DNA of 33,020 nt from Nostoc sp. B(2019) (GTDB taxonomy: Bacteria > Cyanobacteriota > Cyanobacteriia > Cyanobacteriales > Nostocaceae): positions 1-33,020 of the forward strand of contig NZ_WVID01000024.1 in NCBI RefSeq assembly GCF_010091925.1, read 5' to 3'. Both the position numbers and the translations under genes were made by a program. The notes below the pieces were generated by a model. The model saw only the letters and a list, made by a program, of their open reading frames with translations. It was not told where the DNA came from and did not search any database. This document shows positions 9,323 to 30,083 of the stretch, piece by piece (the first letter of the stretch is position 1; each line of letters begins with the position of its first letter).

Positions 9323-9404
9323 TATGGCTATCACTCCTGTTTATATAGATAGAAACACCACAGTTATGCTGATGTGTATTTAATTTACACTTTTGTCTGT
9401 TTGA

Positions 9405-10517: not shown

Positions 10518-10558
10518 CAACTGCCCCCTGCTCATTCAATTTTGGATTTGCAATTTTG

Positions 10559-13927: not shown

Positions 13928-14632
13928 ATGATTAATTTACCGCCTATCCACACGATTCTTGTGCCTCAAGGAGCAGAGTACAAAGCTGTGTGTCGCGGCT
14001 TAAGCCGGATCAATAGCTCAACGCCAACGGTAATAGCGATTCCCATTGGGATGAAACCTTTAACTAAATACTTAGAACAATGGCAAACAGATAAACACTT
14101 CCAGAATGATTCACAACCCAGAGTCATAATCATGGGTATTTGTGGCAGCTTAAGCAAGCGCTACGCAGTTGGAGATATTGTACTTTATCAGAATTGTATT
14201 TATCAGAAGCAAGTTCGAGAATGCGATCGCATCTTCACAACCCAGTTGCATTCTCATCTATCATATAAAGTGTCTTTAGTCAATTCTTTGAGTTGCGATC
14301 GCGTCATTTGGTCTGCTGCTGAAAAACTCCATTTAGGTGAGACTTTGGGTACTGATGTTGTTGACATGGAAGGATTTGCTGCCTTAGAGTTTTTCAACGC
14401 GTCTGGGGTAGCCGTTGCCATGTTGCGAGTAGTCAGCGACGACTCTGGGCATGATATCCCTGACCTAACACCAGCAATCAACCCCGATGGTTCCCTTCAG
14501 CCATTAGCGTTAGCGATGGCATTGCTTAGACAACCTATTGCCGCGACTCGACTAATTCGAGGTTCATTAACAGGAATAAAAGTGTTAGAGCAATTGACAA
14601 GTTTGCTGTTTTCTGAGTATATGCTGGAATAA
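13928..14632 (+). CDS. hpnG: HpnG-like nucleoside phosphorylase (adenosylhopane phosphorylase)
   Basis: A 234-aa protein of the purine/uridine phosphorylase superfamily. In hopanoid synthesis HpnG removes adenine from adenosylhopane to give (phospho)ribosylhopane. Visible features: N-terminal strand HTILVPQGAEYKAVCRGL, the glycine-rich VIIMGICGSLSKRYAVGDIV resembling the family GxxGxL...GD segment, and DVVDMEGFAALEFFNASGVAVAMLRVVSDD, which fits the DMExxA...RxxSD signature of nucleoside-binding phosphorylases. ATG 13928 is chosen because homology-like sequence begins there; the longer frame from TTG 13829 adds 33 residues of poor character over a HIP1 site. No good ribosome site precedes it. 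It is the only plus-strand gene in this arm, convergent with the REC-kinase gene. Assignment as HpnG rests on family plus context. Confidence 0.8.
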   Translation: MINLPPIHTILVPQGAEYKAVCRGLSRINSSTPTVIAIPIGMKPLTKYLEQWQTDKHFQNDSQPRVIIMGICGSLSKRYAVGDIVLYQNCIYQKQVRECDRIFTTQLHSHLSYKVSLVNSLSCDRVIWSAAEKLHLGETLGTDVVDMEGFAALEFFNASGVAVAMLRVVSDDSGHDIPDLTPAINPDGSLQPLALAMALLRQPIAATRLIRGSLTGIKVLEQLTSLLFSEYMLE

Positions 14633-14770: not shown

Positions 14771-16057
14771 CTAAATTGGCAGTGTAACTACAAACTTTGT
14801 CCCCTCACCAGGCTTAGATAAACAGTCAATTTGTCCATTGTGCTTATCACAAATAATTTGTTTTGCGATCGCTAATCCTAACCCCGTACCTTTGTTGGCT
14901 CCTTTAGTAGTAAATAAGTGGTCAAATATACGTTGTTTTACTTCCTCACTCATACCAATACCATTATCAGCAATAATTATTTTTACCTGTTTATCGGCTA
15001 TGAGTGTTGTAATTGTAATGCGGTTAGGATTAGCTGTGATTTCTGCAAAACTACGGTCTGCAATAGAATCATCCAAGGCATCAATGGCATTTGCCAGAAT
15101 ATTCATAAATACTTGATTTATCTGGCCAGAAAAACACTCCACTTGAGGTATATTTCCGTACTCTGTAATTACCTCAATTGGTGGACGTTGGTCATTGGCT
15201 TTAAGACGATGTTTGAGAATTAAAATTGTGCTGTCAATTCCTTCATGTAAATTAAATGATTGTTTGAAGTCTCGATCAGCCCGCGAAAAAGTCCTTAAAC
15301 TATTGCTAATATTTTTGATGCGATCGCAAGCCATGATCATTGAATCAATCATGTTGAATAAATCTTCTGTACAATAATACAAGTCAATTTCTTCGGCATG
15401 ATTAATAATCTCTTCGCTAGCTGATGGGAAACTCTCTTGATAAAGCTTCAAATGTTGAATAATATCACCAATATTTGGTTTTGCTTGTTTGAGGCTAGCT
15501 GAAATAAAACCAAGGGGATTATTCATTTCGTGGGCTATTCCTGCTACTAAATTACCCAGTGCTGACATTTTCTCACTCTGGATCATTTGTAGTTGGGTTT
15601 GCTGTAACTCTTGTAAAGATTGGGTTAATTCTGCGGTGCGTTCTTGCACCCGTTGTTCTAAAGTACGAGTGAGATGACAGATTTTTAAGTGTAGTTTTAT
15701 TCTGGCAATTACTTCTTCTTGCTGGAAAGGTTTAGTAATGTAGTCAACTGCACCAATTTCCAGTCCTTTCACTTTGTCTGTAGAATCAGACAAAGCAGTC
15801 ATAAAGATTACTGGAATATTCTCTGTAATAGAATTAGTTTTTAGCCTGCGGCAAGTTTCAAATCCATCGATACCGGGCATCATCACATCAAGGAGAATGA
15901 GATCGGGAGTGGCGTATTCCGTTTGTTCGATTGCTGATTCTCCATCTGTAGCCATGAGGGCTTTCCAACCATATCTTTGAATCGCTTCTGACAGCACCTT
16001 CAAATTATTTGGATTGTCATCTACTAAAAGAATATGTATTGGCTTAGAGATAATCAT
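14771..16057 (-). CDS. Response regulator-histidine kinase (REC-HisKA-HATPase)
   Basis: A 428-aa soluble signalling protein. An N-terminal receiver (about 5-122) has acidic DD (13-14), the phospho-acceptor D57 in LLDVMMPG, T87 and K109 in DYITKP. A coiled coil follows (about 128-162, LEQRVQERTAELTQSLQEL), then HisKA with H176 in GIAHEMNNPLG and an ATPase domain with NILANAIDALDD, DNGIGM and TGLGLAI. This order, receiver first and kinase second, suits a relay in which another kinase controls the activity of this one. No membrane segment is present, so it acts in the cytoplasm. The gene starts only 3 bases after the stop of the CHASE2 hybrid kinase, so the two are cotranscribed and almost certainly partners. 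It is the last gene of the central cluster. Confidence 0.95.
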   Translation of the reverse strand: MIISKPIHILLVDDNPNNLKVLSEAIQRYGWKALMATDGESAIEQTEYATPDLILLDVMMPGIDGFETCRRLKTNSITENIPVIFMTALSDSTDKVKGLEIGAVDYITKPFQQEEVIARIKLHLKICHLTRTLEQRVQERTAELTQSLQELQQTQLQMIQSEKMSALGNLVAGIAHEMNNPLGFISASLKQAKPNIGDIIQHLKLYQESFPSASEEIINHAEEIDLYYCTEDLFNMIDSMIMACDRIKNISNSLRTFSRADRDFKQSFNLHEGIDSTILILKHRLKANDQRPPIEVITEYGNIPQVECFSGQINQVFMNILANAIDALDDSIADRSFAEITANPNRITITTLIADKQVKIIIADNGIGMSEEVKQRIFDHLFTTKGANKGTGLGLAIAKQIICDKHNGQIDCLSKPGEGTKFVVTLPI

Positions 16058-16060
16058 TTA

Positions 16061-18850
16061 TCATTGCCTTGATTCAATAATTACAAAAGATTTGAGCATT
16101 TTACGTATTTTTGTCGTTTGGAAATTAGCGGTAAGTTTGCTCAACTCAGTCACAAAGGGAGTTAGCTGTTTATTTTGCTCAATCATTTCGTTTAATATTC
16201 CCTCAATCGCTGGAATATCCCCCATCATGGCTAAGTGATATAGTTGTTGCAACACTTCCTGGGATGGCAAAATTAATTCACTGTTGGTTACTTGCTCCTG
16301 CTTGTAAATTAACTGCTGAGGTGTTGATTGGACATATATCCAGTCAACTTTTAGCACCGATCGCAATGTATTGAGTAATTCATCTATTTGTAGGGGTTTG
16401 CCTACAAATGCTGTTGCCCCTGCTTGTAAACTCCGCTGACGATTCGACTCGAATACGTTAGCACTAGAAACGATGATTGGAATAGAACTAGTTTGCGAAT
16501 GCGCTTGCAGGTGAACCATTAACTCAAAGCCATCCATATTGGGCATAGCTAAATCGAGCAGAATCATATCTGGCTGATGTTCAGTTGCCAATTTTAATCC
16601 CTGTTTACCGTCAACCGCTTCCAGGTAAGAGCAGCCAATTTCTTGCAGCAAAGTGGTCAAAATAGAACGGTGGTTGTCATCATCATCAACAATGAGAATC
16701 TGAGGAGCATCACCTCGAACTCCGGTGATTTTTTGATGGGTTGAAGTAGTTTTGCCTTCATTCCATTCATGGGCAAGCGATGCTGTCAAATCCAGCCAAA
16801 ACAAACTCCCTTCGCCCAAGTGACTCTGCACCTGAATTTGGCTTCCCATCAATGCCGCAACTCTTTGACTGATAGTTAATCCCAAGCCTGTACCTTCAGC
16901 TCGCTGCTTTGCCTCACCCACTTGCTCAAAAGGCAAAAAGATTTTTTCCAATTGGTCTGGTGACATCCCCACACCTGTATCTTCAATCTGGAAGCGAATA
17001 TTAGTGATTGGTAATTCAGAATTGGAAATTTGACCAGTGTCTTGCTCAGTTTCTAGTATCTCTACTTTGAACGTCACGCTACCGTTGTCTGTGAACTTGA
17101 TTGCATTACCCAACAAATTAATTAAAACTTGCCGTAGTCGCTTTTCATCTGTTTGAATGGCAAGTGGTAGGCGATCGCTAATTAAAATATTAAAACTAAT
17201 CCCTTTCTGCTCGGCTCGGATACCACAAATCTCAGTTACACCATGTAAAAAACTAGGCAAATGCACAGTAGTGGTGACTAATTCCAATTTTCGAGCTTCA
17301 ATTTTTGAGAGATCGAGAATGTCATTAATTAGCATCAGCAGGTGTGAACCACATTGATGGATAATGCTGACTCCTTCTCGGTTTTTCTCTGTTAAATTGG
17401 GCGACTGCGCTAGTAGCTGGGCAAAACCAAGGATACCATTGAGTGGTGTGCGTAGCTCGTGGCTCATATTTGCGAGAAACTCGCTCTTTGCCTGGTTAGC
17501 AGCATCAGCAGCTTGCTTGGCTTCAAGCAGTTCATGAGTTCGCTCCTCGACTTTTGTCTCCAAGGTTTTGGAATAATCTAAAAGTTGATTGTTGGCAATT
17601 TCTAATTGCTGGTTCGTTTCTTCTAACTTTTGCTGCTTGTAGGCATTTGTAGTTGCAATTACACTGATAATAAACCCAGCTAGGGCAGGCGTGACCGGAA
17701 TCAGAACACCAGATAAAAATATGCAGTAGCTACCCCCTATCAACACCCCACTCAAACCTATAGTTGCCCAGAGAATTTTGCCACCGGGAATCTGCCACCT
17801 ACTATGCACCTTGGCTAACCACAAACTATTACAAGAACCAAGGATAGACCACAAAACAATCCAGAGTGATGCAGAAATACCTGAAATTCCGTGCAGATTG
17901 GTTTTTCCTATTTTTGCTCCTCGCACCAGTTGGAGAGCAATATTGGCATGAATAAGCACACCAGGAGTCGGTTTTTGAGCAGATATCAAGGAGGAGCTGA
18001 AGGGTGTGCTAAAGAAGTCATTAGTACTAGCAGCAGTTGAACCAATAAATACCATGCGATCGCGCATTAAATTTGCCGGAATTTTTCCTGCTAAGACATC
18101 GCGCATGGCAACTGTACGAAAAGCAGTTTCCGAACCATGCCAGTTGAGCAGAATTTGATAGCCTCCGACATCGGCATTACTATAGCCTGCTTCTTTATTT
18201 TTGAGCGGTTGGTAGACTGTCTTGCCTAATCGAAACTTCTGCTGTTTTTCGTCAATGCTTTCTAAGGTAATCTTTTCGGCTTCTAGGTACTTGAGCGCTA
18301 CATGGGTTGCCAATCCCGCTTTGATATTACCCTCTTCTTTAGCATCTTCAGCTGTTAGCAGGGCACGACGCACATGGCGATCGCCATCTAGCACCAAATC
18401 AGCTAAGCCTACTTGATCATTTTTTTTCAGTTCCGGTGGGGGATTGACCCGCTCACCAGTAATTTTTTCAACTCCAATTAAATTGGGAGTAGTGCGGAAG
18501 ACTTGCACAAGTTGCTCGTGACCGCTTCCCTCTGGCAAATCCCGATATAAATCTAAACCAATAGAACGGGGTTGTTGTTCCCTGATTTTTTTTAATAATT
18601 TTGCTAATGACCAGTCAGGAACAGGCCATTTACCTACTGATTGAATATCGCGCTCATCAATGGTGACAATTACAACTTCATCAGCTATTTCTGATTGCGA
18701 TCGCAGTCGTACCCATTCATCACGGAGTTTCCATTCTGGCAAACTAAAAAGTCCTAACCATTGCCCAATCATGACTGTTAGGGCAACGCTAGGAGTAATA
18801 ATCAAAATGCTGCGAGTGCTTTGAATAGAAGTTTGGAATTTACGCCACAT
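16061..18850 (-). CDS. CHASE2-domain hybrid sensor histidine kinase
   Basis: A 929-aa membrane sensor. A first membrane helix (about 14-34) is followed by a large extracytoplasmic CHASE2 domain (about 40-315; [22 protein letters not shown] and [16 protein letters not shown] are typical), then three membrane helices (about 320-345, 358-378, 380-400), a coiled coil (405-455), HisKA with H464 in [12 protein letters not shown], an ATPase domain ([21 protein letters not shown]), and a receiver (about 717-833) with D766 in [10 protein letters not shown]-terminal helical tail (about 863-929) follows. The signal sensed by CHASE2 is not known. In the cluster it lies between the secreted DUF928 gene and the REC-kinase; the 344-base gap upstream contains a 299-bp mobile element. 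A phosphorelay from here to the neighbour kinase is likely. Confidence 0.95.
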
Positions 18851-18882
18851 GCCATACAGTTAATTGATTTTAGTTATGTCTA

Positions 18883-19181
18883 GGTGAGGCATTACTGAAT
18901 GGTGTCAACTTAACCTTAAAAAGGCGGTTAGAAACCGCGTCTACACAGGCAAAACCCACCTTTCCTGCGGAACGCCAAGGCGAACGTGGGTTAAAAAACC
19001 TTAATTTTCTCTTAGCCCACGGAGGTGGGCTTTGTTTGTATAGCCAAGCCACTGCGTTGGGGAGACAGCGCCGTGGGCGGGTTTCCCGACTTGTTCGCGC
19101 AGCGTCTCCGCCAGGAGAAGCAAGTGGCGCGAATTCTATTCGCCCTGGCTCTAAGTTGACACGTATGAGCATTGCCTCACC
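18883..19181. mobile_element. MITE-like element with GGTGAGGC/GTGTCAACT terminal repeats
   Basis: The 299-bp element is bounded by imperfect 28-bp inverted repeats, GGTGAGGCATT...GTGTCAACT at 18883-18910 and AGTTGACAC...TGCCTCACC at 19154-19181. Inside are an inverted pair AACCCACC/GGTGGGCT and GC-rich runs typical of Nostoc-group interspersed repeats. No transposase is encoded; a 100-codon frame across it is not a gene. Removing it would leave only about 45 bases between the DUF928 gene and the CHASE2 kinase gene. Confidence 0.75.
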
Positions 19182-19194
19182 AATACCTTGTTCC

Positions 19195-20136
19195 TTAGTT
19201 TGCAGATATCACTAATGGAGCCGTTGCAATCTCTTTCAAGCTAACTGAAGTCAGAAGTTCTTCCCATTGCTTAATAACGGTTGCATTGTTGGGTTGTTCT
19301 GCGTGCAATGCCGCAAGCGTTGCTACGCAGTCATACCAAACTCCATGTTTACCAAAAGCAGTTGCCCGCTTCAATGCATCTTGCTGTTGCATTGCCGTTG
19401 TTAGTTCAGCACTGGGTTGAATGCGTTGAATCCAACCATCTACATAGGGCGTACTCGGACTGAGTTGTCCATCGATTTTTAGCGCTAAGAACCATTGATA
19501 GTTTTTACCAACGGCTAAAGCTGGTGCATCAGCAGGTAATTTAATTGCGTAGGCGAAGCCCGTAGTAGACATCGCCCCTGTTTTTCCCGCAACTGGAATG
19601 GTCATTTGGTGCTGAGTTTTACCAGTTTCATCCTTAAGGCTGAATACGGCTTCTTGAGCATCAGAAGCAGGGATATACACCATCACAGTCGGACGTTCAG
19701 ACACCGTTGTGCCATAGAAACTTTGGGGTAGGAGTGCAATTAGCGCGGCTGGGCCTGTTGCTGCTACAGTCGAAGGATTCAAGTAGTAAGTGCCAACGCG
19801 AGAAGCTCCTCCGCTTGCCTGTTGAGGAGCGCCGTTACCTTTCTTTGGGGTAAACAGATTACCACGCGAAGCCCCTCCCGTTGCTTGGCTGGGGACACCA
19901 TTTCCTTTCTTTGGGGTAAATAGATTACCACGCGAAGCCCCTCCCGTTGCTTGGCTGGGGACACCATTTCCTTTCTTGGGAGTAAAGAAACTACCACGCG
20001 AAGCCCCTCCCGTTGCTTGACTAGGAGCGCCATTATTGGTCGGCGGAGTAAATGTTACAGCATAAGCACTGCTGCATACACCATTAGCAACTAGAGCAAT
20101 AACGCTCAATGTACTAACTAAATATCGACGTTTCAT
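19195..20136 (-). CDS. Secreted DUF928 family protein with N-terminal tandem repeats
   Basis: A 313-aa exported protein. Signal peptide about 1-26 (ending SSAYA). Residues 29-116 hold four 22-residue repeats, FTPKKGNGVPSQATGGASRG plus two residues, probably disordered and glycine/proline-rich. The rest (about 122-310) matches DUF928 as I know it: TVSERPTVMVYIP, VFSLKD, YAIKLP, LAVGKNYQWFLAL, YVDGWIQRI, then helices HGVWYDCVATLAAL and a conserved end (WEELLTSVSLKEIATAPLV). DUF928 is a cyanobacterial domain of unknown function, often beside CHAT and CHASE2 genes, which fits here. AGAGGTG lies 8 bases before ATG 20136. It is 195 bases downstream of the CHAT gene on the same strand. Acts in the periplasm or outside the cell; partner unknown. 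Confidence 0.92.
   Translation of the reverse strand: MKRRYLVSTLSVIALVANGVCSSAYAVTFTPPTNNGAPSQATGGASRGSFFTPKKGNGVPSQATGGASRGNLFTPKKGNGVPSQATGGASRGNLFTPKKGNGAPQQASGGASRVGTYYLNPSTVAATGPAALIALLPQSFYGTTVSERPTVMVYIPASDAQEAVFSLKDETGKTQHQMTIPVAGKTGAMSTTGFAYAIKLPADAPALAVGKNYQWFLALKIDGQLSPSTPYVDGWIQRIQPSAELTTAMQQQDALKRATAFGKHGVWYDCVATLAALHAEQPNNATVIKQWEELLTSVSLKEIATAPLVISAN
19789..20052 (-). repeat. 66-bp in-frame tandem repeat in the DUF928 gene
   Basis: Four units of 66 bp, the middle copies nearly identical (ACCACGCGAAGCCCCTCC recurs at 19861, 19927 and 19993). The period is a multiple of three, so copy-number change would add or remove 22 residues without breaking the frame. Confidence 0.9.
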
Positions 20137-20331
20137 GATGTTTCACCTCTTATTTTTGTTAACTTTTGATACAAAACATACATTGATCTAAATGCAGTAT
20201 TCAGTTCGTTTGAGAATCCCTAATCAGTAGGCTGAAAAGGCATATATCTTATTATTTATAGGCGATTTTTATCTCTGACGCTATAAAGTATCTGTACTAT
20301 TTCATGCTTTTCTTTACGCAACATTACTTAC

Positions 20332-22899
20332 TTAAAGCCAGTTCCCAACCAAAACAAAAGTAGACCAAAAGAACGGGTCACGAAAATCTGTTTGGCGAAT
20401 CAGGTTTATTTGTGCTTGTCGCAGTGCTTCAGCTTTGGTAATTTTGGGTTGTCGTAGTTGCTCGTAGAAGCGAGTCATTAGCAATTCTGCTGCCTTATCT
20501 TTGACGGGCCATAGGGTGGCGATGGTGGAACGGGCACCGGATTTGACCGCTAAACCTGCCAGTCCCAGGACAGCGCGGTCATCACCTGTTGCGGTATCGC
20601 ACGCACTCAGTACCAACAATTCAATTGCTTGCGATGAATTGCCACCCCGATTTTTTAGCAGTTCAGATAATTCCTTCACATTAACTTGTCCATCCCACGT
20701 AAGTAAGAAGGTATCTTCAAGACGGGAACTAAACTGTCCGTGGGTTGCGAGATGGACGATATCAGCACGACTGGATTTCACCCGATCAGCTAGGGCAAGA
20801 CTTGTAAACTTTTGGTTTAGTAACAGGTCAGATGGCACTGTCTGGGAAATTTGCTTAACTTCCGATTCCACCGCAGGTAAGGCAGCAAAACCAGCACGAG
20901 ATTGACTAATACCACCGACGATCGCATTAATCTTGTTTTGTTGAAGCGAGTGGGCTGCCATGAGTTGCAATCCTGGTGAGAGGGCAACAGCATATTTCTC
21001 AATCAGATATTGCTTACCGTCGTATAAAGCGGCCATGGGAATGTTACGTAACTTCCCATCCAAAACAAACACTAATGTCTTGGTATCTTTAAAAACTTGT
21101 TCTTGTTCAGCAGGACGAATTAACCAATCATAGAGTTGTTGGGTAAGTCGCTCTCTGTCCTGGGAATCTGAAACAGGGTTGAGGGCAACTAGCAGATGAT
21201 CGAGAGTTTGCTCAATTTCTGCTTGGGGTTTGCGAGTCGCATAATAACGCAGAGGTTCTCCCGCTTTAGAGAGAATCACTGCTAGGCGATCGCTTAAAAT
21301 AATCGGGTAAATAACCGTTGCTTTTGGGTCAACTTTGTCAATTTGTTGTGCTTTATCCAAACAAGCTTCCTGGAAAAAGTTATCGAGTTCAGCGACTTGC
21401 AGTGACTCAATCAATTCACGGGCTTGCATTAGGGCTGCCTGTGTTGGTTGCTCATCCAGAAGTAAACCTACTAGTTCCCGGTAAACAGGCTCCACACTTT
21501 CACGGAAAGAGAACTGCATATCAGGGTTAACGGCAACTAAATCGGAACGCAATGCTTTTAACGACTTAACAGCTTCGGTATAGGCTGAAATCGCTTCTGG
21601 GCGATCGCCCTTTTGTTTATACAACTGTCCTACCTGCCATGCCGATTGAGCAATAATATCGTCAGCTTGGAGTTGACGGGCAATATTCAAAGATTTCTGG
21701 GCTAATTCCTTCGCTTCAGACCACTGCTGGGTGCGACGATAAAGTTGTCCCCACTGATACAGCGCATAAGCTTCTGCGGCTGCATCCTCAATCTTTTGTG
21801 CAGACTTGACTGTAGCTGCCATGAGTTGTGCCAGATCTTTGATTGGTAACACTTGATCGGGTTTTTCCAATCGATTTAAGGTAGCCACAAAATTAATCGC
21901 GGCATAAAGGGAAGTATGGCTGGGTGGCAGTTTTTCCAGATGTTGCCGCAATTGAGGTGCGAGTTCGATAGCATATTCAAGTTTGTCGGAATCCACCAAC
22001 AATTTGAAACGAGCCAAACGTGCTTGTAAAGCTTCATTCGGATTCGTAGCTGCCGTTTCTGCGTCTTCAAAGTAATTTAATGCTGCTTCCGGGTCGAGTG
22101 AGTCAGAGGCAACTTTTCCCAAAGTTGAGAGAATAGAACTTAGCTGGGTTTTAGCTGCTATTTTGTTCGCTGTGGCTAAACTTTGTTCTAAGACTTGCTG
22201 GCTTTTGCTATCACCGATCACATGCAAAGCTAAACCAAGCGATCGCAACCCACTAACTTTCACTTCCGAATCTGGCGTTGCTGCCAATTTTTGTGTTAGT
22301 TCTTCTAACTGTTGTCGGGAGCGACGGTAAAATCCTAAACTTTGTAATGCTTGTGCCTGGTTAATTTGACTGCCCAGGCTTCCCATTCTATCGCTAGCCT
22401 GCTCGTAATATTTTTGAGCTTGTTGCCAGGTTGCAAGGGCAGTTTCAGCATTGCCAGTACGTAGTTCTAAATTGGCTTTTGTATTCAGTATTTGCGCCCA
22501 GATAATCGCATCAGCAGAGGGTTTAGCCGTTTGCAAAAGTTTTACACTTTGCTCGATAGATTTTCCAGCAGCTTCCCACTGATTAAGTTCCTGTTGTGCC
22601 AGGGAGAGGTAACTTAAACTTAAGGCTTCATTCAGGCGATTGCCTTTAGCTTGATACTGTTGTGCCGCCATTTGCCAAGCCGTCACCGCTTCCGCAAAAC
22701 GTCCCGATTGGTAGAGGTTCCGTCCTTGTTCTAGCCAGTTAATAGGCTGGGAAGATACAAGAGTAGGGGTTGTTATTGGTAGCGTAGACGCTGCTTCTCG
22801 AAAAGATGCTTTTACTGGTGTAATAGTAAATGCTAAACACAAACTGAAAATACTTAGGCTGGCATATAGCCAACGACTTTGTTTAATTCGGAAAGCCAT
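20332..22899 (-). CDS. Secreted TPR-CHAT protein (caspase-like peptidase fold)
   Basis: An 855-aa exported protein. Signal peptide about 1-31 (ASLSIFSLCLAFTITPVKA). Residues about 50-470 are tetratricopeptide helices (for example LYQSGRFAEAVTAWQMAAQQY and QKGDRPEAISAYTEAVKSLKALR). The C-terminal part, about 535-855, is a CHAT domain, the caspase/separase-like fold: H720 in VHLATHGQF and C767 in LLVLSACDTATG form the expected catalytic dyad, followed by GLAGLAVKSGARSTIATLWPV, a strongly conserved CHAT segment. Some CHAT proteins are proteases, others are known only by fold. The signal peptide places it in the periplasm or outside. It lies 37 bases downstream of the TpsA gene, so the exoprotein, its pore or the DUF928 protein are candidate substrates; that is inference. 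Confidence 0.94.
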   Translation of the reverse strand: MAFRIKQSRWLYASLSIFSLCLAFTITPVKASFREAASTLPITTPTLVSSQPINWLEQGRNLYQSGRFAEAVTAWQMAAQQYQAKGNRLNEALSLSYLSLAQQELNQWEAAGKSIEQSVKLLQTAKPSADAIIWAQILNTKANLELRTGNAETALATWQQAQKYYEQASDRMGSLGSQINQAQALQSLGFYRRSRQQLEELTQKLAATPDSEVKVSGLRSLGLALHVIGDSKSQQVLEQSLATANKIAAKTQLSSILSTLGKVASDSLDPEAALNYFEDAETAATNPNEALQARLARFKLLVDSDKLEYAIELAPQLRQHLEKLPPSHTSLYAAINFVATLNRLEKPDQVLPIKDLAQLMAATVKSAQKIEDAAAEAYALYQWGQLYRRTQQWSEAKELAQKSLNIARQLQADDIIAQSAWQVGQLYKQKGDRPEAISAYTEAVKSLKALRSDLVAVNPDMQFSFRESVEPVYRELVGLLLDEQPTQAALMQARELIESLQVAELDNFFQEACLDKAQQIDKVDPKATVIYPIILSDRLAVILSKAGEPLRYYATRKPQAEIEQTLDHLLVALNPVSDSQDRERLTQQLYDWLIRPAEQEQVFKDTKTLVFVLDGKLRNIPMAALYDGKQYLIEKYAVALSPGLQLMAAHSLQQNKINAIVGGISQSRAGFAALPAVESEVKQISQTVPSDLLLNQKFTSLALADRVKSSRADIVHLATHGQFSSRLEDTFLLTWDGQVNVKELSELLKNRGGNSSQAIELLVLSACDTATGDDRAVLGLAGLAVKSGARSTIATLWPVKDKAAELLMTRFYEQLRQPKITKAEALRQAQINLIRQTDFRDPFFWSTFVLVGNWL

Positions 22900-22936
22900 A
22901 AATAATTACCAAGCGTACATACTTTATTTGGTCAAG

Positions 22937-25900
22937 TTAAGTTTTCGGAACCGCAGCACAGGTTAATGCTTGCTGCATATTCACAACAGATTTATCTGCA
23001 AGTAACTCGATTTTTCCTTGGGCATTACGTCGCCAAGAAGTAGCTTGGACAAGAACCTCTGGCGATGTTGTCATTTGTGCTGTGACGGAGCCATTTTTCC
23101 GGTATGCAGAGATATCGCGCATATCAGACCAAGTGCGATCGCTCATCACTTGTTGATTGGGATTTTGCGGCACACCACCTCTTCCCGTTGCCACAAAACT
23201 GCTGCCTTGATTTGCAGAACAACCTGTAGCAATTTGCTGTGATGAATCGACTAAGTTTACAGGTAATTCGACTAAGCCGGAACTGGGGTCAACTCCAAAG
23301 TTGTTGATATCTACTGTACCGTTTACGCCAAATTGGGAACTGGCTGTGATGTCATTTTCAGGAGTCAATTGTTGCCGAAACTTCAGTCCCAAAAGACCTT
23401 GTGTGGTGATTTGAATATTGCCACCCCGACCTTGTACTGCATTAGCAGAAATATCGCTATTTTCTAGTCCTAAGATAATGGGGGACTTGATCGTGATGTT
23501 ACCTCCGGTGGCTAAACCCGTTGCATCCGTCGTGATGTTACTACCCTGGCGTAAAAGGATGTTATCAGCATTCAGAATTATGTTGCCTTGAGATCCGGCT
23601 CGGCTTTCAGCGCGGAGGCTAGCAGAATTTTTCAAGCGAATTGAGTCTGCGGTGACAAGCAAATTTCCAGCATTGCCTGTGCCTTGATTGCTAACACTGA
23701 CACTTGCACCATCCTGAATTAGTAGTTGTCCCGTCCGAATTTGTAAGTCTCCCCCTGCACCCGTTGCGCCATCGACTGTATTGCCAAACAATCCACTCGC
23801 TGCTCCTGTACTAAAAGCGTCATTGAAACCTGGCAACTTACTCCGCTCAGAATACGTCGGATCGCTACCGGATAAGATAATGCGATCGCTGACATTAAAG
23901 GTAAGTGTGCCTGCTTTTCCAGAACCAAAACTTGTGGATAAGATTTGTCCCCCATTCAAGACTTCCAGTGTATTGGCATTCACGTTAATATCGCCTGCAC
24001 TTCCAGGATTGACTGTAATTGTGGTTAAGAGCGCACCGTTCGTGACAGAAAGTGAGTTAGCGTTGATGTTGATTGCTCCGCCATTGCCGTCGGCAGTTTC
24101 ATTCACTGCACTTGATGCAAAGGTTGCAGCGCCCGTTGCGCCGAATCCATCAAAACTGGCAGTATTGGCGTAAATGTTCATTGTGCCGCCATTGCCTTGT
24201 CCAAGTGTGGCAGTTGACAGAAAAGCACCCTTGGCGACAAACAGCGCATCGGTTCTAATATTCAAGTCGCCCGCCGTCCCGATTCCTCCAGTTGCAACAG
24301 CAGTCGATACAAAACTAGAATTGCCATTGGCATCTTGTCCGCTAAAGGTAGCAGTTTTGGTTTGCAGGTTGATGGTTCCTGCGTTTCCTCTAGACAGCGT
24401 GCTACTGACTAAATAAGCGCCATTTGTGACGGACAGCGATTCAGCCGTAATATTGAGTTCTCCGCCATTGCCGATCGCGCCCGGATTGACACTTGTAGAG
24501 ATAAAGCTTGGATTACCAAAGCGATCAACTCCATCAACAGAAACTGTTTTTGTAGCTTGAATGTTCATCATGCCGCCATCACCTTTTCCAAGTGTGGCGG
24601 TTGACACAAAAGCGCCATTTACAATAAACAGATCATCGGTTTTGATATTCAAGTCGCCTGCCGTGCCGATTCCTCCGGTTGCCACAGCACTCGACACAAA
24701 ACTAGAATTGCCATTGGCATCTTGTCCGCTAAAGGTAGTGGTTTTGGTTTGGAGATTGATGGTTCCTGCGTTTCCTCTAGACAGCGTGCTACTGGCTAAA
24801 TAAGCGCCATTAGTAACAGACAGCGATTCAGCCGTAATATTGATGTCTCCACCATTGCCGATCGCGCCCGGATTGACACCCGTAAGTATTAAACTCGGCT
24901 CACCAAAGCGATCAACTCCATCAACAGAAACCGTTTTTGTGGCTTGAATGTTCACCTGGCCTGCATTGCCCTTACCTCTGGTGTTCGTCACTAGGTAACT
25001 GCCATTAGTCATAAACAGCGATCCGGTGGTAATGTCAATATTGCCTGCATTTCCCACCGTGTTTGCTAATACTTGATTGAGAATGCCACTCTCATTGATA
25101 TTGATCGTGTTGGCAGCATTAATCTCAATGTTGCCTGCTCGTGATTCTGGTGCGCCTACCCCGGAAATACCCGATCGCAGTTGGCTGCCTCCGCTCAAGT
25201 TCAAATTTTCAGCGTTGACTGTAATTCTGCCTCCAGGCGTTCCACTGACGTTGGCTCTGGCTGCATTACTCAGAGATATATCACCTCGCTGTAAGTCTGA
25301 TGGCATACTCAGGCGTAGATCGTTGCCATTCATGATTAGCCCTAATGTTCCGGCTGCCGCAACGCTTGCCAATTCGATTTGTCCACCTTGCGATCGCAAG
25401 CGTCCACCTTCTAAGGCGATCGCTCCGCCTGCCAATACCAAACTTCTTCCAGATGGGACTTGAAGCCCGACTCCATTCACAATGGAGCGATTAATGATCG
25501 CTCCCGGATTTGCGCCAAACTGAAGACCAATTGGTACACTCATCGTTAGCAACGGGGCTGTAAGATTTGTTGTGCCAAACTCACTGCTATCCTGAAAACC
25601 GATGTTAGTTGCCGTGGTTCCGATAAAGGAGCCGCCAATGTTTAACTGAGCATTGGGGCCAAACACAATGCCACTGGGATTGAGTAAGAATAAATTGACG
25701 GAATTCGTATTATTAATCGTGCGAATCAAGCCATCAATATTGGAAACATTTCCACCAGTAACTCGGCTAAATATATTTGTAATATTTGGGGTGTTGACTA
25801 AATCAAATATTGCCGAACCATTTGTCGGTACAGAAAAATTACTGAAGCTGTGAAATAAATTATTACCTTTTTCAATACCATTAAGAATCGTGAAATTATT

Positions 25901-26023
25901 CCCACTTTGGTTAACAGTAGTGTTGGTAGTACTATCAGATGTCACCTGAGCCATTGTAGGTAGAAGCATTCCAGCTATCAAGATACTATTCACCAAACCT
26001 AAGCAAACAGAAATTGCTTTCAT
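22937..26023 (-). CDS. TpsA-type filamentous hemagglutinin-like exoprotein
   Basis: A 1028-aa secreted protein of the two-partner pathway. Signal peptide about 1-25 (GMLLPTMAQ). The TPS secretion domain spans about 30-280 with NGIEKGNNLFHSFSNFSVP, the NLFLLNPSGIVFGPNAQL motif and GGSFIGTTATN; these drive recognition by TpsB. From about 230 onward there are beta-helix repeats rich in G, N, T and S (GNGGDINITAESLSVTNGAYL pattern). A conserved C-terminal tail contains CSANQGSSFVATGRGGVPQNP, usual in cyanobacterial members. A 129-residue segment is tandemly duplicated (about 360-617). It would be moved by the TpsB encoded just upstream (28031-26235). Its role on the surface (adhesion, contact or matrix) is not known. 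ATG 26023 directly precedes the signal peptide. Confidence 0.94.
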   Translation of the reverse strand: MKAISVCLGLVNSILIAGMLLPTMAQVTSDSTTNTTVNQSGNNFTILNGIEKGNNLFHSFSNFSVPTNGSAIFDLVNTPNITNIFSRVTGGNVSNIDGLIRTINNTNSVNLFLLNPSGIVFGPNAQLNIGGSFIGTTATNIGFQDSSEFGTTNLTAPLLTMSVPIGLQFGANPGAIINRSIVNGVGLQVPSGRSLVLAGGAIALEGGRLRSQGGQIELASVAAAGTLGLIMNGNDLRLSMPSDLQRGDISLSNAARANVSGTPGGRITVNAENLNLSGGSQLRSGISGVGAPESRAGNIEINAANTININESGILNQVLANTVGNAGNIDITTGSLFMTNGSYLVTNTRGKGNAGQVNIQATKTVSVDGVDRFGEPSLILTGVNPGAIGNGGDINITAESLSVTNGAYLASSTLSRGNAGTINLQTKTTTFSGQDANGNSSFVSSAVATGGIGTAGDLNIKTDDLFIVNGAFVSTATLGKGDGGMMNIQATKTVSVDGVDRFGNPSFISTSVNPGAIGNGGELNITAESLSVTNGAYLVSSTLSRGNAGTINLQTKTATFSGQDANGNSSFVSTAVATGGIGTAGDLNIRTDALFVAKGAFLSTATLGQGNGGTMNIYANTASFDGFGATGAATFASSAVNETADGNGGAININANSLSVTNGALLTTITVNPGSAGDINVNANTLEVLNGGQILSTSFGSGKAGTLTFNVSDRIILSGSDPTYSERSKLPGFNDAFSTGAASGLFGNTVDGATGAGGDLQIRTGQLLIQDGASVSVSNQGTGNAGNLLVTADSIRLKNSASLRAESRAGSQGNIILNADNILLRQGSNITTDATGLATGGNITIKSPIILGLENSDISANAVQGRGGNIQITTQGLLGLKFRQQLTPENDITASSQFGVNGTVDINNFGVDPSSGLVELPVNLVDSSQQIATGCSANQGSSFVATGRGGVPQNPNQQVMSDRTWSDMRDISAYRKNGSVTAQMTTSPEVLVQATSWRRNAQGKIELLADKSVVNMQQALTCAAVPKT
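24174..24947 (-). repeat. 387-bp tandem duplication inside the TpsA gene
   Basis: Two adjacent copies with a 387-bp period: ATGTTCA recurs at 24174, 24561 and 24948 (plus strand) and the flanking text is close to identical. The encoded copies share VSVDGVDRFG, NPGAIGNGG, ESLSVTNGAYL, TLSRGNAGTINLQTKT and FSGQDANGNSSFVS. High DNA identity suggests a recent duplication or ongoing gene conversion. Confidence 0.85.
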
Positions 26024-26109
26024 GATCCTATATTTATAAGTTTTTATTTATACTTAGATTTCCCAAAATGGCATTATTTTTCACATCATTAATTGGTAAT
26101 CTTTTTTAA

Positions 26110-26220
26110 CGCAGAGGAACGCTGAGGTAAACGCATAGGCGCTTCTCTACGAGACGCTACGCGTAGCTTGCTTCCCCGGAGGGGTACGCCTTCCCGCAGG
26201 GTAGGTGCGCTGAGTCTTTG
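26110..26220. repeat. Interspersed repeat in the TpsB-TpsA spacer
   Basis: The stretch begins AACGCAGAGGAACGCTGAGG and continues with CTACGAGACGCTACGCGTAG and GGGTACGCC words typical of Nostoc-group repeats. It occupies about half of the 211-base spacer. No gene is seen there. Confidence 0.6.
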
Positions 26221-26234
26221 TTCAAGTTTTCGCT

Positions 26235-28031
26235 TTAAAAGGGTGAGTAGCGTACCGAGAAGTACAGCCCATTTTCTTGGAGCGATCGCTTTTCACCTTC
26301 TACTGATATCAGGGGAATACCCCAATCTAGACGGGCCCAGAAGTTATCACCTTGTGTCCACAGCATCCCTAACCCGCTACCCACCAGCGTACTTGGTGAT
26401 GGATTTTTGCCATTGTGATTCCAGCCTTTACCAATATCAATGAAGGGTGTTAGTTGCAGCAATCCTCCCATTTTCGGGGCGCGGAGGATGGGCAATCGAA
26501 ATTCTGCTGACAACAACATCCCATTATCTGTCAGTAATATATCCTGACGATAGCCGCGCACACTTAGTTGTCCACCCAGACCAAATTGCTCCAACGGCAC
26601 CAGAGAATCGGCTGCTAGTTGTAAATCGCCCCTAGCTAAAAACAGAGTGTCAGATGCCAACTGTCGCACCCACTGCGCCTGTCCCCGCCAAGCGAAAAAG
26701 CGGCTATCTGGGGCATCTTCATTGATATTTGCACTAAACCAATCTACACCAAGACTAAATTGCGATCGCGCTGCAAAAACTTGCTTGTTGCTGCGTTGGG
26801 TATATTCTTGGCTAAAGCGCAAGGCAGAAACTTTGGTTTTTCCGTCTGCATCAGCACCAGGTGATAACGCAAACCCGCCAATATTATCAATACCTAATTC
26901 AGTTTGGCTTTCCTGGTGCGAAAAAGATAGCCCCACAGCTAATTCCTGCGTGGGCTTTTGCATTAGGGGTTGCCGATATCCCAATTCGTAAAAACGGCTA
27001 TTGGCCTGAATATCGAGGGTATTGAATGGCTTTTCAATTACGTTGTTCCACCCTTGGCTAAAACCAAAAAAGACAGTGCCATCATGGGCATTAATTGGCA
27101 GAGTGTAGTTGGTATTGACTGTATTACTACCATCAGTATTGGCATACCCAACACTCAGGGTATCGCCCAAGCCGAGTAAATTTGCTTCTTGAACATCAAC
27201 TCCCCGACGAAAACTACCTACACTTGGCGATCGCCCATTATCCAAGGTTGCTGTCAGCTTGAAGGTATCTGCTTCTTCAACTTCGACTCGTAACACATTA
27301 GTTCCTGGACGCGCACCTGTTTGCAACTCGGCTGATAGGTTTTGAATGCGTGGATTGAGACGAAGTAATTGTAACTTTTCGAGTAAACGGGGTACATTCA
27401 GGGGTTTACCAGCACCAAGTTGGATGCGATCGCGGATATATTCACTTTGCAATCGCCGATTCCCAACGATTTTGATTTCTTGCAAACTACCCTCAATCAC
27501 CTGAACTTGGATCACCCCAGCTTCTACTGTCTGCGGTGTAATTAAAGCCCCCGTAGTTACATAACCTTTATCAGTATAGAGTTTGGTAATGGCATCTTTA
27601 ATTTGCAATAACTCTGCAAATGTTAGTTCTCGTCCCACAAAGGAAGATGTTACAGCAGCAAAATCTTCGGGTTTGAAAATTGTACTGCCAATAACTTTAA
27701 TCTGATCGACTTTGAATTTAACATTCAGGTTATCCGGCTGTAGAATTTGCGATTCTGGTATGGGAGGAGGAAGTAATTGTTCTTGCTCTGATGGCTGCGG
27801 TAGCACATCTGATGGTAAAGGAGTTGTGGGAATATCTTCTAATCTATCTGACGGTAGTGAGCCAGGATTAGGAGTTTGGGCAATTGCTTGTTGATAGTTG
27901 CATAATACTGCTGCTAAAACAAAACCAAATGCCAGAAGCTTCATCCCAAAGATAATATTTAAAGGCTGATTTAATATTTTTCTGAGAAATACTGAGTTAA
28001 TAATGGAGTTTTCAATAATAACTTGCTTCAC
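26235..28031 (-). CDS. TpsB-type outer-membrane transporter (ShlB/FhaC family)
   Basis: A 598-aa two-partner-secretion pore, first gene of the central cluster and the evident partner of the TpsA gene downstream. Parts: N-terminal leader, proline-rich linker (about 53-95), POTRA domains (about 103-240; FKVDQIKVIGSTIFKPEDFA, YTDKGYVTTGALITP), beta-barrel with VRGY at about 491-494 and a C-terminal phenylalanine (YSPF). GTG 28031 has an AAGAGGAAGAG ribosome site about 7 bases away, while the internal ATG 27944 (MKLLAFGFVLAAVLC, a normal signal peptide) has none. With the GTG start, a 29-residue basic/hydrophobic extension precedes the signal core, like the extended signal peptides of some secretion systems. 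It is paralogous to the orphan TpsB at 2376-4175, similar over POTRA and barrel. Confidence 0.94.
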   Translation of the reverse strand: MKQVIIENSIINSVFLRKILNQPLNIIFGMKLLAFGFVLAAVLCNYQQAIAQTPNPGSLPSDRLEDIPTTPLPSDVLPQPSEQEQLLPPPIPESQILQPDNLNVKFKVDQIKVIGSTIFKPEDFAAVTSSFVGRELTFAELLQIKDAITKLYTDKGYVTTGALITPQTVEAGVIQVQVIEGSLQEIKIVGNRRLQSEYIRDRIQLGAGKPLNVPRLLEKLQLLRLNPRIQNLSAELQTGARPGTNVLRVEVEEADTFKLTATLDNGRSPSVGSFRRGVDVQEANLLGLGDTLSVGYANTDGSNTVNTNYTLPINAHDGTVFFGFSQGWNNVIEKPFNTLDIQANSRFYELGYRQPLMQKPTQELAVGLSFSHQESQTELGIDNIGGFALSPGADADGKTKVSALRFSQEYTQRSNKQVFAARSQFSLGVDWFSANINEDAPDSRFFAWRGQAQWVRQLASDTLFLARGDLQLAADSLVPLEQFGLGGQLSVRGYRQDILLTDNGMLLSAEFRLPILRAPKMGGLLQLTPFIDIGKGWNHNGKNPSPSTLVGSGLGMLWTQGDNFWARLDWGIPLISVEGEKRSLQENGLYFSVRYSPF

Positions 28032-28704: not shown

Positions 28705-29991
28705 CTAACCTGGATAAACGCGTCCTTTCCAAGCACCGCCGCGTCCTTGCCAGTGACGTAGGGCTGAATCTAGAGTCATCAGGGTGTAAAGAAAAGCGAT
28801 CGCAGGTAAGCAAAATGCTAACCAGAGAGGACATTTATAAAAGCGAATTGTAGGTAAATAAGCCCAAGTCATAAGTAGCCATGTGCATAAACCTGTAAAT
28901 GCGATCGCCCAATTTCCCCAAATCAAACCTAAAATGACACCCACAGGCGGAATCAGATAAATCAGCGTCATTCCCAACAGAGTACCCAGTAGCAGCAATG
29001 GAGAATAATCCAGTTGCGTATAAGCAGTACGAGCAACCATATCCCAAATCGTCTTTAAAGAAGGATACGGGCGCAAGCTGCGAGTCAAAGTACTCAATCC
29101 GAGCCAAATACGACCGGGGGAGGTAGGGGGCGAAGCAGGGGAGGCAGGGGAAGCAGGGGAAGCAGGGGAGGAAGAAGAATTACTTTGTTTCTCTGTTTGC
29201 TCCTCCGCCCCTCTGCCCTTCTCCTTAACGGCACGAGCCAGGGCGCAATCGTCAATTAAAGTTTGGCGAATGGCTTGAATACCACCAATTTGCTCTAAAG
29301 CTTCTCGGCGAATTAGGATACAGCCCCCAGCAGCAGCGGCGGTTGGATTGTTGGGGCTATTAACCCAGCGGAAGGGATAGAGTTTTTGGAAGAAAAAGAC
29401 GAAAGCCGGGATTAAAAGCTTTTCCCAAAAGCTTTCACACCTAAGTCGCACCATCACAGAAACTAGGTCTAAATCTTCCTGCACCGCTTTAGCAACCAAT
29501 CGGCGGAGATTGCTAACGTCATGTTCAATATCGGCATCGGTGAGTAAAAAATAGTCGGGTTTCTGTAGAGACGTTGCGTATAACGTCTCTACAGCCTGAA
29601 TGCCTTGCTCAATAGCCCAAAGTTTACCCGACCAACCGGGAGGTAATGATTTGCCAGAGATAATATGCAATTGCTGGGGTTTATCTAGGGCGTAGGCAGC
29701 TCCTTCGGCAAAATTTGCTGTCCGGTCTGTGCTGCGATCGTCTACCAAAAAGACGTTCAGAGAACCAGGATAATCTTGGAGGAGGAGCGATCGCAATGTG
29801 GTTGCGATCAAATCAGCTTCGTTACGCGCAGGAATGACCGCACAAACTACAGGTAACGATTCTAGAGACGTTATATGTAACGTCTCTACCTCTAATTGCT
29901 GGTCTGCTCGCCAAAACTGCCCCCAAAAACTCAGTAATCCCAACCAAATTGTTAAGGATAAGAGGATTAACCCTAATACAATTGCCGCCAT
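28705..29991 (-). CDS. hpnB: Hopanoid-associated glycosyltransferase HpnB
   Basis: A 428-aa membrane glycosyltransferase of family 2 type, found with hopene cyclase and thought to act in side-chain glycosylation. An N-terminal helix (about 1-24) is followed by the GT-A catalytic core: VVCAVIPARNEADLIATTL, VFLVDDRSTDRT, LLTDADIEHD, AAAAGGCILIRREALEQIGG and TLIDDCALARAVKEKG. Three C-terminal membrane helices follow, then the usual end TLDSALRHWQGRGGAWKGRVYP. ATG 29991 (MAAIVLG) is preferred over TTG 30003; an AAGAG lies 4 bases before it. Three repeat-derived insertions lie in frame: two palindromes giving VETLxxTSL (about residues 35-43 and 134-142) and a serine/proline-rich stretch (about 257-293). 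They fall in loops and the core motifs are intact, so the protein may still work. Divergent from shc. Confidence 0.93.
   Translation of the reverse strand: MAAIVLGLILLSLTIWLGLLSFWGQFWRADQQLEVETLHITSLESLPVVCAVIPARNEADLIATTLRSLLLQDYPGSLNVFLVDDRSTDRTANFAEGAAYALDKPQQLHIISGKSLPPGWSGKLWAIEQGIQAVETLYATSLQKPDYFLLTDADIEHDVSNLRRLVAKAVQEDLDLVSVMVRLRCESFWEKLLIPAFVFFFQKLYPFRWVNSPNNPTAAAAGGCILIRREALEQIGGIQAIRQTLIDDCALARAVKEKGRGAEEQTEKQSNSSSSPASPASPASPASPPTSPGRIWLGLSTLTRSLRPYPSLKTIWDMVARTAYTQLDYSPLLLLGTLLGMTLIYLIPPVGVILGLIWGNWAIAFTGLCTWLLMTWAYLPTIRFYKCPLWLAFCLPAIAFLYTLMTLDSALRHWQGRGGAWKGRVYPG
29111..29222 (-). repeat. G-rich repeat inserted in frame in hpnB
   Basis: On the plus strand, GGGGGAGG and GGGGAAGCAGGGGAGG-type words (29116-29172) and GCTCCTCCGCCCCTCTGCC further on. 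Read on the minus strand it encodes a low-complexity stretch with SPASPASPASPASPPTSPG, placed between the IDDCALARAVKEKG motif and GRIWLGLSTLTRS. Normal HpnB proteins, as far as I recall, lack this stretch. Confidence 0.7.
29565..29592. repeat. Palindromic repeat copy 1 within hpnB
   Basis: GTAGAGACGTT and AACGTCTCTAC flank a 6-base centre. It is a common intergenic palindrome type in Nostoc-group genomes, but here lies inside the hpnB reading frame, encoding VETLYATSL. Confidence 0.85.
29862..29889. repeat. Palindromic repeat copy 2 within hpnB
   Basis: TAGAGACGTTA and TAACGTCTCTA flank a 4-base centre. It is the same family and the same reading phase as copy 1, encoding VETLHITSL near the N-terminus of HpnB. 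Confidence 0.85.
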
Positions 29992-30083
29992 GATCTCTTG
30001 CAAATTTTCAGTGACTCAGACACAATACACCGTACTGCCGTGTTCATAACTAGATGTTGAGTGTTGAGGTTAAATAGTTTTTG
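29992..30083. promoter_or_regulatory. Shared hpnB-shc divergent promoter region
   Basis: Only 92 bases separate the divergent starts of hpnB and shc, so promoters for both must lie here or extend into the coding regions. TAAATAGT before shc is a weak -10-like match; no convincing -35 partner or known operator is seen. Confidence 0.5.

Follow-up and report, generated by a model that had tools for sequence, protein, structure and literature searches.

To our knowledge, the CHAT proteases that have been studied, Craspase and HetF, act inside the cell, and Craspase is cytosolic. CHAT proteases resemble separase, which cuts after Arg in the motif ExxR, and Craspase cuts after Leu, according to the available part of the source (PMC9729208); the same excerpt states that the substrates of CHAT proteases are commonly encoded beside the protease gene. 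HetF, a CHAT protein of filamentous cyanobacteria, is presented in the accessible text of PMC8406250 as a putative protease whose active site is required, with its CHAT part at amino acids 1–555 in addition to TM and TPR domains. A metacaspase of Trichodesmium carries a CHASE2 domain (excerpt of PMC2853523), and DUF928 is found beside a CHASE2 sensor in Nostoc (PMC5587647, in the portion available). Our literature searches on a system comprising CHAT, DUF928 and CHASE2 returned nothing, and no paper combining 'two-partner secretion' with 'CHAT domain' was found; DUF928 came up in a single paper of the literature searched.

We analysed a six-gene block in Nostoc sp. B(2019) (Table 1), using the term window for the whole stretch of DNA under analysis (33,020 nucleotides). 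The six genes share the minus strand and, in a Pfam scan of ten window proteins, have the domains that were ascribed to them in a preliminary description. The profile matches score 216 bits against a cut-off of 24 for the CHAT domain (PF12770) and 187 bits against a cut-off of 26 for DUF928 (PF06051), and the CHASE2 sensor has its CHASE2, HisKA, HATPase_c and REC domains all present. A TpsB transporter (POTRA plus barrel) adjoins a TpsA with a TPS domain, the arrangement of a two-partner secretion pair, with secretion itself being predicted; the signal peptides of TpsA, CHAT and DUF928 were judged by eye. The gap between TpsB and TpsA is 211 bp, TpsA sits 37 bp upstream of CHAT, and the REC-kinase starts 3 bp past the CHASE2 kinase. 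A 100-residue open reading frame at 18870–19172, inside the repeat patch, is probably spurious and not a gene. A scan of the locus for promoters and terminators gave no excess above shuffled sequences. In the window the block is flanked by hpnA, an hpnG-like gene, hpnB and shc. These hopanoid genes were considered as part of the module and rejected: at E 1e-10, neither the 40-locus nor the 66-locus set described below contains a match to hpnG, hpnB or shc in its stretches, and hpnA-like matches are confined to loci L168 and L169, at 35%.

Table 1. Features of the locus, with coordinates in the window and supporting profile matches.
Feature	Coordinates	Strand	Evidence or detail
TpsB outer-membrane transporter (POTRA_2 + ShlB)	26235..28031	(-)	Pfam PF03865 2.6e-32, PF08479 6.6e-23
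TpsA exoprotein, N-terminal TPS domain	22937..26023	(-)	Pfam PF05860 1.4e-57
TPR-CHAT caspase-like protein	20332..22899	(-)	Pfam PF12770 9.5e-64, residues 584-853
DUF928 protein, predicted secreted	19195..20136	(-)	Pfam PF06051 2.9e-55
Tandem array within DUF928, residues 27-113	19798..20058	(-)	four GGASR sites: Arg47, Arg69, Arg91, Arg113
CHASE2 hybrid histidine kinase (CHASE2-HisKA-HATPase-REC)	16061..18850	(-)	Pfam PF05226 5.7e-62, PF00512, PF02518, PF00072
REC-HisKA-HATPase kinase	14771..16057	(-)	Pfam; HisKA just below its cut-off
Dispersed-repeat patch, intergenic, DUF928 to CHASE2 kinase	18851..19194	no strand	49 same-genome matches, locus itself counted

Judged from gene neighbourhoods, the true unit is a four-gene core of TPR-CHAT, DUF928, CHASE2 histidine kinase and REC-kinase. 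The core gene set is kept across 40 orthologous loci (CHAT in 39/40, CHASE2 in 38/40, REC-kinase in 37/40), whereas TpsA is present in 30/40 and, within the fetched stretches, TpsB in 15/40. Among 66 named loci, a set overlapping the first, CHAT was found in 65, CHASE2 in 60 and TpsB in 19, these being counts in fetched stretches, some of which lie on contigs that stop early; all four core genes are covered to at least 85% in 52 of the 66. The preliminary description had proposed a single six-gene unit, of which the four-gene block holds while TpsA, and above all TpsB, prove to be variable neighbours. Twenty control stretches of 20 kb, taken at round coordinates from related genomes, contained no CHAT, CHASE2, TpsA or DUF928 gene (0/20; TpsB in 2/20), so the association of these genes is not due to chance. 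Within the core, TPR-CHAT, DUF928 and the CHASE2 kinase are adjacent and, as genome comparison shows, co-inherited. Of 42 genomes that have the DUF928 orthologue, 41 also have a CHAT orthologue, which is listed for none of the other 76, and pairwise distances among the three genes correlate at 0.88–0.93 over 52 loci plus the window, with r 0.93 for CHAT against DUF928. Both kinases had been counted in the unit; the CHASE2 kinase keeps its place, but the REC-kinase, of which there are two divergent types among relatives, tracks the other three core genes poorly (0.47–0.63 over the same loci).

The CHAT protein has a signal-peptide-like stretch at its N-terminus, followed by TPRs and a C-terminal CHAT domain. 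Its His720/Cys767 dyad, correctly described at the outset as intact, is invariant in 40/40 aligned CHAT proteins and in 62/62 of a second, overlapping set, so that catalysis is probably retained. The single sequence searched against the PDB gave chance-level matches alone, and a diverse CHAT profile gave weak matches to CHAT entries (E 0.05–0.4). Human separase and Csx29 (8eey_B) were among the Foldseek matches of the TPR-CHAT model, at low TM-scores (0.13–0.28 for the separase entries 9hma, 9hms and 7nj1). The active site of the AlphaFold2 model is of low confidence, and for this reason no reading of the S1 pocket was drawn. Counting along the alignment from the diverse CHAT profile to the PDB places separase D2151, which binds the P1 Arg, at CHAT residue 805; this residue is E in 22, A in 21, Q in 10 and something else in 9 of 62 orthologues, a variability that makes any arginine preference of CHAT tentative. 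The nearby D801 is invariant in all 62, which is only suggestive. Single open reading frames joining TPS and CHAT domains occur in 24 of 194 genomes of the phylum, and all 19 that were fetched contain both domains, 17 with both catalytic motifs. These fusions are consistent with a CHAT domain outside the cytoplasm. CHAT is also found fused to CHASE2 and, next to DUF928, CHASE2 recurs with varied partner domains: besides the histidine kinase, these are a SpoIIE-type phosphatase, a nucleotide cyclase and CHAT itself, in CHASE2-SpoIIE, CHASE2-cyclase and CHAT-CHASE2 proteins.

The DUF928 protein is predicted to comprise a disordered N-terminal array followed by a beta-sandwich and a helical tail (AlphaFold2 pLDDT below 50 at residues 1–133; 10-residue means of 77–91 over residues 141–290, except for two blocks at 58 and 62). 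The array, overlooked in the initial sequence-only reading, is built of tandem units of about 22 residues, each ending in GGASR, with the sites spaced 22 residues apart. Orthologues carry 1–15 sites each (64 proteins, around 300 sites in total). The 22-residue spacing recurs in 198/234 site intervals with a pattern that required the Arg, and Arg follows GG[AGSV]x in 280/286 cases with a pattern that did not. Aligned sequences place the array under selection at the level of the peptide; 262 GGASR sites have 92 different DNA spellings and use all six Arg codons. At least two array sites were found in 100 DUF928 open reading frames and in two that the profiles left unlabelled, one of these two, in L165, being the first half of a DUF928 gene that is split. 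Other lineages of DUF928 have similar arrays too, and the gene immediately upstream is then usually CHAT. This is so for 4/5 non-orthologous arrays, found regardless of CHAT and three of them in one genome, versus 4/48 other DUF928 genes (p 0.0011), a comparison that leaves out L282 and the sister loci L284–L293, which were chosen for a nearby CHAT (Fisher p 1e-4 with them). In five non-orthologous array loci, with L294 set aside, the residue after GG[GA]x is Arg in 25/25 cases and the one preceding it is T, V or I; the wider pattern GG[GAS]x, L294 included, gives 28 Arg and 9 Pro, all nine in L282 (spacer GGSAP). By virtue of these conserved arginine motifs, the array points to DUF928 as a candidate substrate. 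As for the folded part, a DUF928 profile had one match in the PDB, at chance level (E 0.27), and the best Foldseek match of DUF928 was the C-terminal domain of MtxA (E 4.6e-06), with a porphyran-binding module also found (E 1.8e-04).

The reading that we prefer, while rating it a little short of probable, is that these genes specify an extracytoplasmic signalling module coupled to a protease. Beyond the observed gene linkage, we infer that CHAT would be exported across the inner membrane and would cleave DUF928 after the array arginines, so that the domain of DUF928 is trimmed or set free, short peptides are released, or both. Either this product or DUF928 as such would be sensed by the CHASE2 domain, and kinase activity would change, with phosphate passing via the receiver of the CHASE2 kinase and then to the REC-kinase; TPS exoproteins encoded next to CHAT may be the surface structures that are being monitored or processed. 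The model is favoured by the tendency of CHAT substrates to be encoded next to the protease, as stated in the excerpt of PMC9729208. Against it stand an array without CHAT within the 8.5 kb fetched (L294), an array that has outlasted the joint loss of CHAT and TpsA (L167) and an orthologue with a single pattern match left (L149). Furthermore, of 63 other DUF928 proteins, 57 show at most two pattern matches (17 of these show none), 27/48 genes in a sample of DUF928 paralogues have no CHAT in their stretch, and the closest studied CHAT protease, Craspase, cuts after a different residue in the part of PMC9729208 available. The extracytoplasmic caspase-like signalling proposed in the preliminary description fits the co-inheritance and the TPS-CHAT fusions, but TpsA and TpsB are not fixed members of it and the REC-kinase follows the others poorly. 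With this block, a caspase-like protease appears to be positioned beyond the inner membrane, beside a secreted protein with a row of near-identical arginine sites and a membrane receptor, an arrangement that suggests signalling by way of protein cleavage. If this is correct, a CHAT at that location with a candidate substrate would tie DUF928 and CHASE2 to a shared function, and cell-surface signalling of the caspase type could be tested directly on a single purified protease and a single substrate.

A more specific and doubtful version treats the arrays as multi-copy pro-peptides, in which an exported CHAT caspase would cut after each GGxSR and near-identical peptides of 18–23 residues would be sensed by CHASE2 receptors on the same or neighbouring filaments. 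The arrays do consist of tandem near-identical peptides with a constant motif between them, with export resting on a signal peptide judged by eye. Bacteria would then have their own equivalent of a multi-copy peptide pheromone, with a caspase-type protease as the enzyme that produces it.

Two alternatives are unlikely to an equal degree. TPR domains bind peptides, and the array might be a multivalent docking peptide instead of a substrate, its GGASR units binding the TPR domain of CHAT, a surface polymer or another partner, with copy number tuning avidity. Binding, too, would suit short motifs that are conserved within a disordered tandem repeat, and positions far from the Arg are conserved (Pro at P10, Phe at P4', Pro at P6') beyond what a protease needs. 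However, across the non-orthologous arrays Arg stays constant and the preceding residue changes, as expected of a P1-driven site, and the invariant dyad, with the catalysis that it makes probable, also argues for cutting. Alternatively, CHAT could mature TpsA, for example at a C-terminal TGR-GG, leaving DUF928 and CHASE2 as a separate sensor pair that reports surface assembly. The window TpsA ends in a motif of this kind (...FVATGRGGVP...), and TGRGG occurs in 117/153 TpsA reading frames of the examined loci, truncated frames and internal matches being counted. TpsA lies directly upstream of 33 of the 65 named CHAT genes (downstream, none was counted), locus L260 has an extra CHAT copy beside TpsA with neither DUF928 nor CHASE2 in 16 kb, and the TPS-CHAT fusions and the joint loss in L167 point the same way. 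On the other hand, CHAT distances follow those of DUF928, TpsA copies vary in number and similarity between loci, and GGASR-type arrays occur in DUF928 and not in TpsA.

It is quite improbable that the arginine sites are cut by some other periplasmic protease of trypsin or clostripain type, with CHAT acting elsewhere. Cyanobacteria have a trypsin-like protease, PrcA, and both the paralogues lacking a CHAT in their stretch and the arrays of L167 and L294 would suit such an enzyme, but arrays, unlike single sites, are enriched beside CHAT. That the block is a mere neighbourhood of surface-biology genes travelling together without a common mechanism is very improbable: the TPS genes and the REC-kinase are indeed loosely coupled, but the phyletic match, the existence of a related CHAT, CHASE2 and DUF928 set whose genes are ordered differently, and the domain fusions all speak against it.

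The module reading shares parts with several known systems. The yeast alpha-factor precursor is a secreted multi-copy precursor in which nearly identical peptides follow one another in tandem, each flanked by basic residues; the tandem-peptide design is the same, but in DUF928 the array precedes a folded domain and the peptides are predicted. Two-partner secretion pairs a POTRA/ShlB transporter with an adjacent TPS-domain exoprotein, as here, where the pair is coupled to CHAT, which elsewhere is fused to the TPS domain. Separase is matched by the TPR-CHAT model, but its P1-Arg-binding position is not conserved in the CHAT orthologues and the array motif GGxxR is without the Glu of the separase site. 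The HetF layout, as given in the accessible part of PMC8406250, differs in that the Nostoc CHAT domain follows the TPRs behind a signal-peptide-like stretch. The Trichodesmium protein likewise combines a caspase-fold protease with CHASE2, but the protease is a metacaspase (C14) and not CHAT, and the available text of PMC2853523 does not mention DUF928 or TPS genes. PMC5587647 concerns WD40 genes with CHASE2 and DUF928, and the word CHAT is absent from it. No Cas-type domain, as would be expected of the Craspase partners gRAMP and Csx30/Csx31, was found by Pfam in the ten window proteins (reading frames at 1–9383 and the rest of the genome lie outside the scan). Craspase itself, the TPR-CHAT (Csx29)/Csx30 pair of type III-E CRISPR, is RNA-guided, whereas the Nostoc CHAT begins with a signal-peptide-like stretch, has DUF928 as its gene neighbour and comes with a CHASE2 kinase. 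The two nonetheless share TPRs followed by a CHAT domain with a His/Cys dyad and, in the part of PMC9729208 available, a substrate gene that adjoins the protease gene, as we propose for DUF928.

The six consecutive genes that the preliminary description placed at 14771-28031 are all present on the minus strand, with their domains confirmed by Pfam, and both residues of the CHAT catalytic dyad, His720 and Cys767, were correctly identified. Signal peptides were assessed by eye. From the gene coordinates, the intergenic gaps between TpsB and the REC-kinase are successively 211, 37, 195, 344 and 3 bp. The fourth of these, between the DUF928 and CHASE2 kinase genes (18851-19194), consists of dispersed repeats with 49 matches in the 7.4-Mb genome, its own copy counted, and a 100-aa ORF inside it is probably spurious. 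The same locus was found in Komarekiella delphini-convector. Hopanoid genes lie on both flanks of the block (9534-14632 and 28705-31994), with hpnA, an RND transporter and an hpnG-like gene (below the curated cut-off) on one side and hpnB and shc on the other; hpnG, hpnB and shc had no match in the fetched stretches of orthologous loci.

Genes of the block and their Pfam domains
Gene	Coordinates	Strand	Domains
TpsB	26235..28031	minus	POTRA_2/ShlB
TpsA	22937..26023	minus	TPS
CHAT protein	20332..22899	minus	TPR+CHAT
DUF928 protein	19195..20136	minus	DUF928
CHASE2 kinase	16061..18850	minus	CHASE2-HisKA-HATPase_c-REC
REC-kinase	14771..16057	minus	REC-HisKA-HATPase_c

With the window's DUF928 protein as query, an orthologue group was found in 42 of 118 family genomes, whole-match E-values dropping from 2e-66 in the group to about 1e-44 directly beneath it. 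Because some lower-scoring matches still reach 47% identity, the group was defined by E-value together with a neighbouring CHAT gene; second pieces of a gene, and a 102-residue G016 genome fragment (76% identical), were left out of the count. Forty of the 42 loci were fetched; the remainder are the window's own locus and one on a 3.6-kb contig. The gene order CHAT, DUF928, CHASE2 kinase, REC-kinase recurs among them, with CHAT in 39 of 40 loci, CHASE2 in 38 and the REC-kinase in 37; of the secretion genes, TpsA is present in at least 30 stretches and TpsB in at least 15 (profiles built from the fetched loci). A separate scan of 66 named loci, overlapping these 40, gave CHAT in at least 65, CHASE2 in at least 60, TpsA in at least 48 and TpsB in at least 19; all locus counts are lower bounds, since no stretch exceeds about 20 kb and certain contigs stop early. 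In 20 control stretches taken at round coordinates, CHAT, CHASE2, TpsA and DUF928 were each found in none and TpsB in two.

Among the matches listed, which were sorted by score with up to 8 candidates scored per genome, a CHAT orthologue (at least 61% identity) occurs in 41 of the 42 genomes with a DUF928 orthologue and in none of the remaining 76, where the best match reaches 52%; genome G033 was counted as positive through a 72% match spanning residues 1-497. The sole exception, genome G078 (locus L101 or L167), has lost both TpsA and CHAT in what looks like a clean deletion when its sequence is compared with that of a sister sharing about 91% DNA identity. Comparison of loci L167 and L168 indicates that this joint loss is apparently recent; the array arginines are kept and the residues after them are starting to diverge. 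For CHAT, DUF928 and CHASE2, the correlations between pairwise distances over 52 loci and the window lie at 0.88-0.93, and the REC-kinase correlates with these three at only 0.47-0.63, because relatives carry two divergent REC-kinase types. These types have about 57-71% and 78-88% identity to the window's protein and do not track the rest of the block.

The DUF928 protein of the window carries a tandem N-terminal repeat with GGASR at residues 43, 65, 87 and 109. Array sites number 1-15 per protein in 64 proteins (one has a single site and one has two), and 198 of 234 spacings measure 22 residues when the pattern included the arginine; when it did not, arginine was still the second residue after GG[AGSV] in 280 of 286 cases. 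The 262 GGASR sites in 63 loci are encoded by 92 DNA spellings that use all six Arg codons, and 42 of the 55 loci with at least three such sites have at least three spellings. This diversity argues that the array peptide is under selection and that recent copying alone is insufficient to explain it. The AlphaFold2 model leaves the array disordered and folds residues 141-290 into a beta-sandwich that carries a helical tail (confidence 77-91, with two blocks at 58 and 62). A single array-type motif at the domain start is common in other DUF928 proteins: the 57 with fewer than three pattern matches divide into 37 with one, 3 with two and 17 with none.

A query consisting solely of the array matched 14 of 194 phylum genomes, and all 19 places listed lie in DUF928 genes, belonging either to the orthologue group or to five non-orthologous genes (three in genome G235); locus L282 supplies a sixth. 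Sites in these six read GGGTR, GGGIR, GGGVR or GGASR with variants, and all 25 GG[GA]x occurrences in five of them (locus L294 left out) are followed by arginine, with T, V or I before it. Counted with L294 and the wider GG[GAS]x, the residue is Arg 28 times and Pro 9 times, every Pro belonging to L282, where the spacer is GGSAP. Five of the six have CHAT immediately upstream on their own strand. With L282 dropped, having been chosen with its CHAT match in view, the tally becomes 4 of 5, compared with 4 of 48 other DUF928 genes in the paralogue sample (p 0.0011, treating genes that share a genome as independent, which they are not). The L294 array gene has no CHAT within the 8.5 kb fetched, and two other array genes in its genome have one. 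The CHASE2 proteins of L197 and L282 end in a SpoIIE phosphatase domain, and an ORF between array gene and CHAT (L282:8990-10180) appears to resemble a transposon protein.

The components are modular. In a non-random sample of 40 DUF928-paralogue loci, hand-picked from listed matches with some long frames among them, CHASE2 is found in 32, CHAT in 21, TpsA in 20 and TpsB in 5; eight CHASE2 proteins scanned comprise two fused to CHAT, two to a cyclase, one to HK-REC and three with CHASE2 alone. DUF928, CHASE2 and CHAT occur together in 9 of 10 sister loci, fetched because they list CHAT close to DUF928 or for their sister-type CHAT, in a different order with DUF928 first and a ~1.4-kb gap, holding a further gene, ahead of CHAT. 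TPS and CHAT share one ORF in at least 24 of 194 phylum genomes (up to 3 candidates scored per genome); both domains were seen in all 19 fetched fusion ORFs and confirmed by Pfam in the three scanned (L192, L206 and L243), and 17 of the 19 keep both His and Cys motifs. By eye, the predicted N-termini in L243 (6544-11430), L244, L245, L253 and L259 resemble the beginning of a family 2 glycosyltransferase, which Pfam confirmed over 52 residues in L243, the sole one scanned; the start codons are predictions. A second CHAT orthologue in genome G065 (L260) adjoins TpsA, with no DUF928 or CHASE2 within the 16 kb fetched.

The most likely mechanism is one in which the CHAT protease would be exported and would cut DUF928 after the array arginines, the CHASE2 receptor then reading the result. 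A bolder reading, in which the array would be a multi-copy pro-peptide, we consider improbable. According to PMC9729208, separase D2151 binds the P1 Arg, and the Craspase CHAT protein has K670 at that position and cuts Csx30 after Leu. Among 62 orthologues the matching residue 805, placed by counting along a weak alignment match (E 0.07), is E (22), A (21), Q (10) or something else (9); D801 is invariant in all 62 and in 24 of 24 diverse CHAT proteins. Foldseek returned separase and Csx29 among many TPR-protein matches to the TPR-CHAT model, both with TM-scores under 0.3, and around the active site the model's confidence is low.

PMC5587647 mentions DUF928 and CHASE2 clustered with WD40 genes, and PMC2853523 reports a cyanobacterial metacaspase with a CHASE2 domain. 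The former was the only paper on DUF928 found in our literature search, whose range excluded most subscription papers; within that range nothing joined the CHAT domain with CHASE2 in cyanobacteria, two-partner secretion with the CHAT domain, or hemagglutinin-type proteins with the CHAT domain in cyanobacteria, and for the CHAT domain with a signal peptide in cyanobacteria the only match was apparently off-subject. Substrate genes commonly adjoin CHAT protease genes, according to PMC9729208, and it is to this known arrangement, a CHAT protease with its substrate adjacent, that we liken the present locus.
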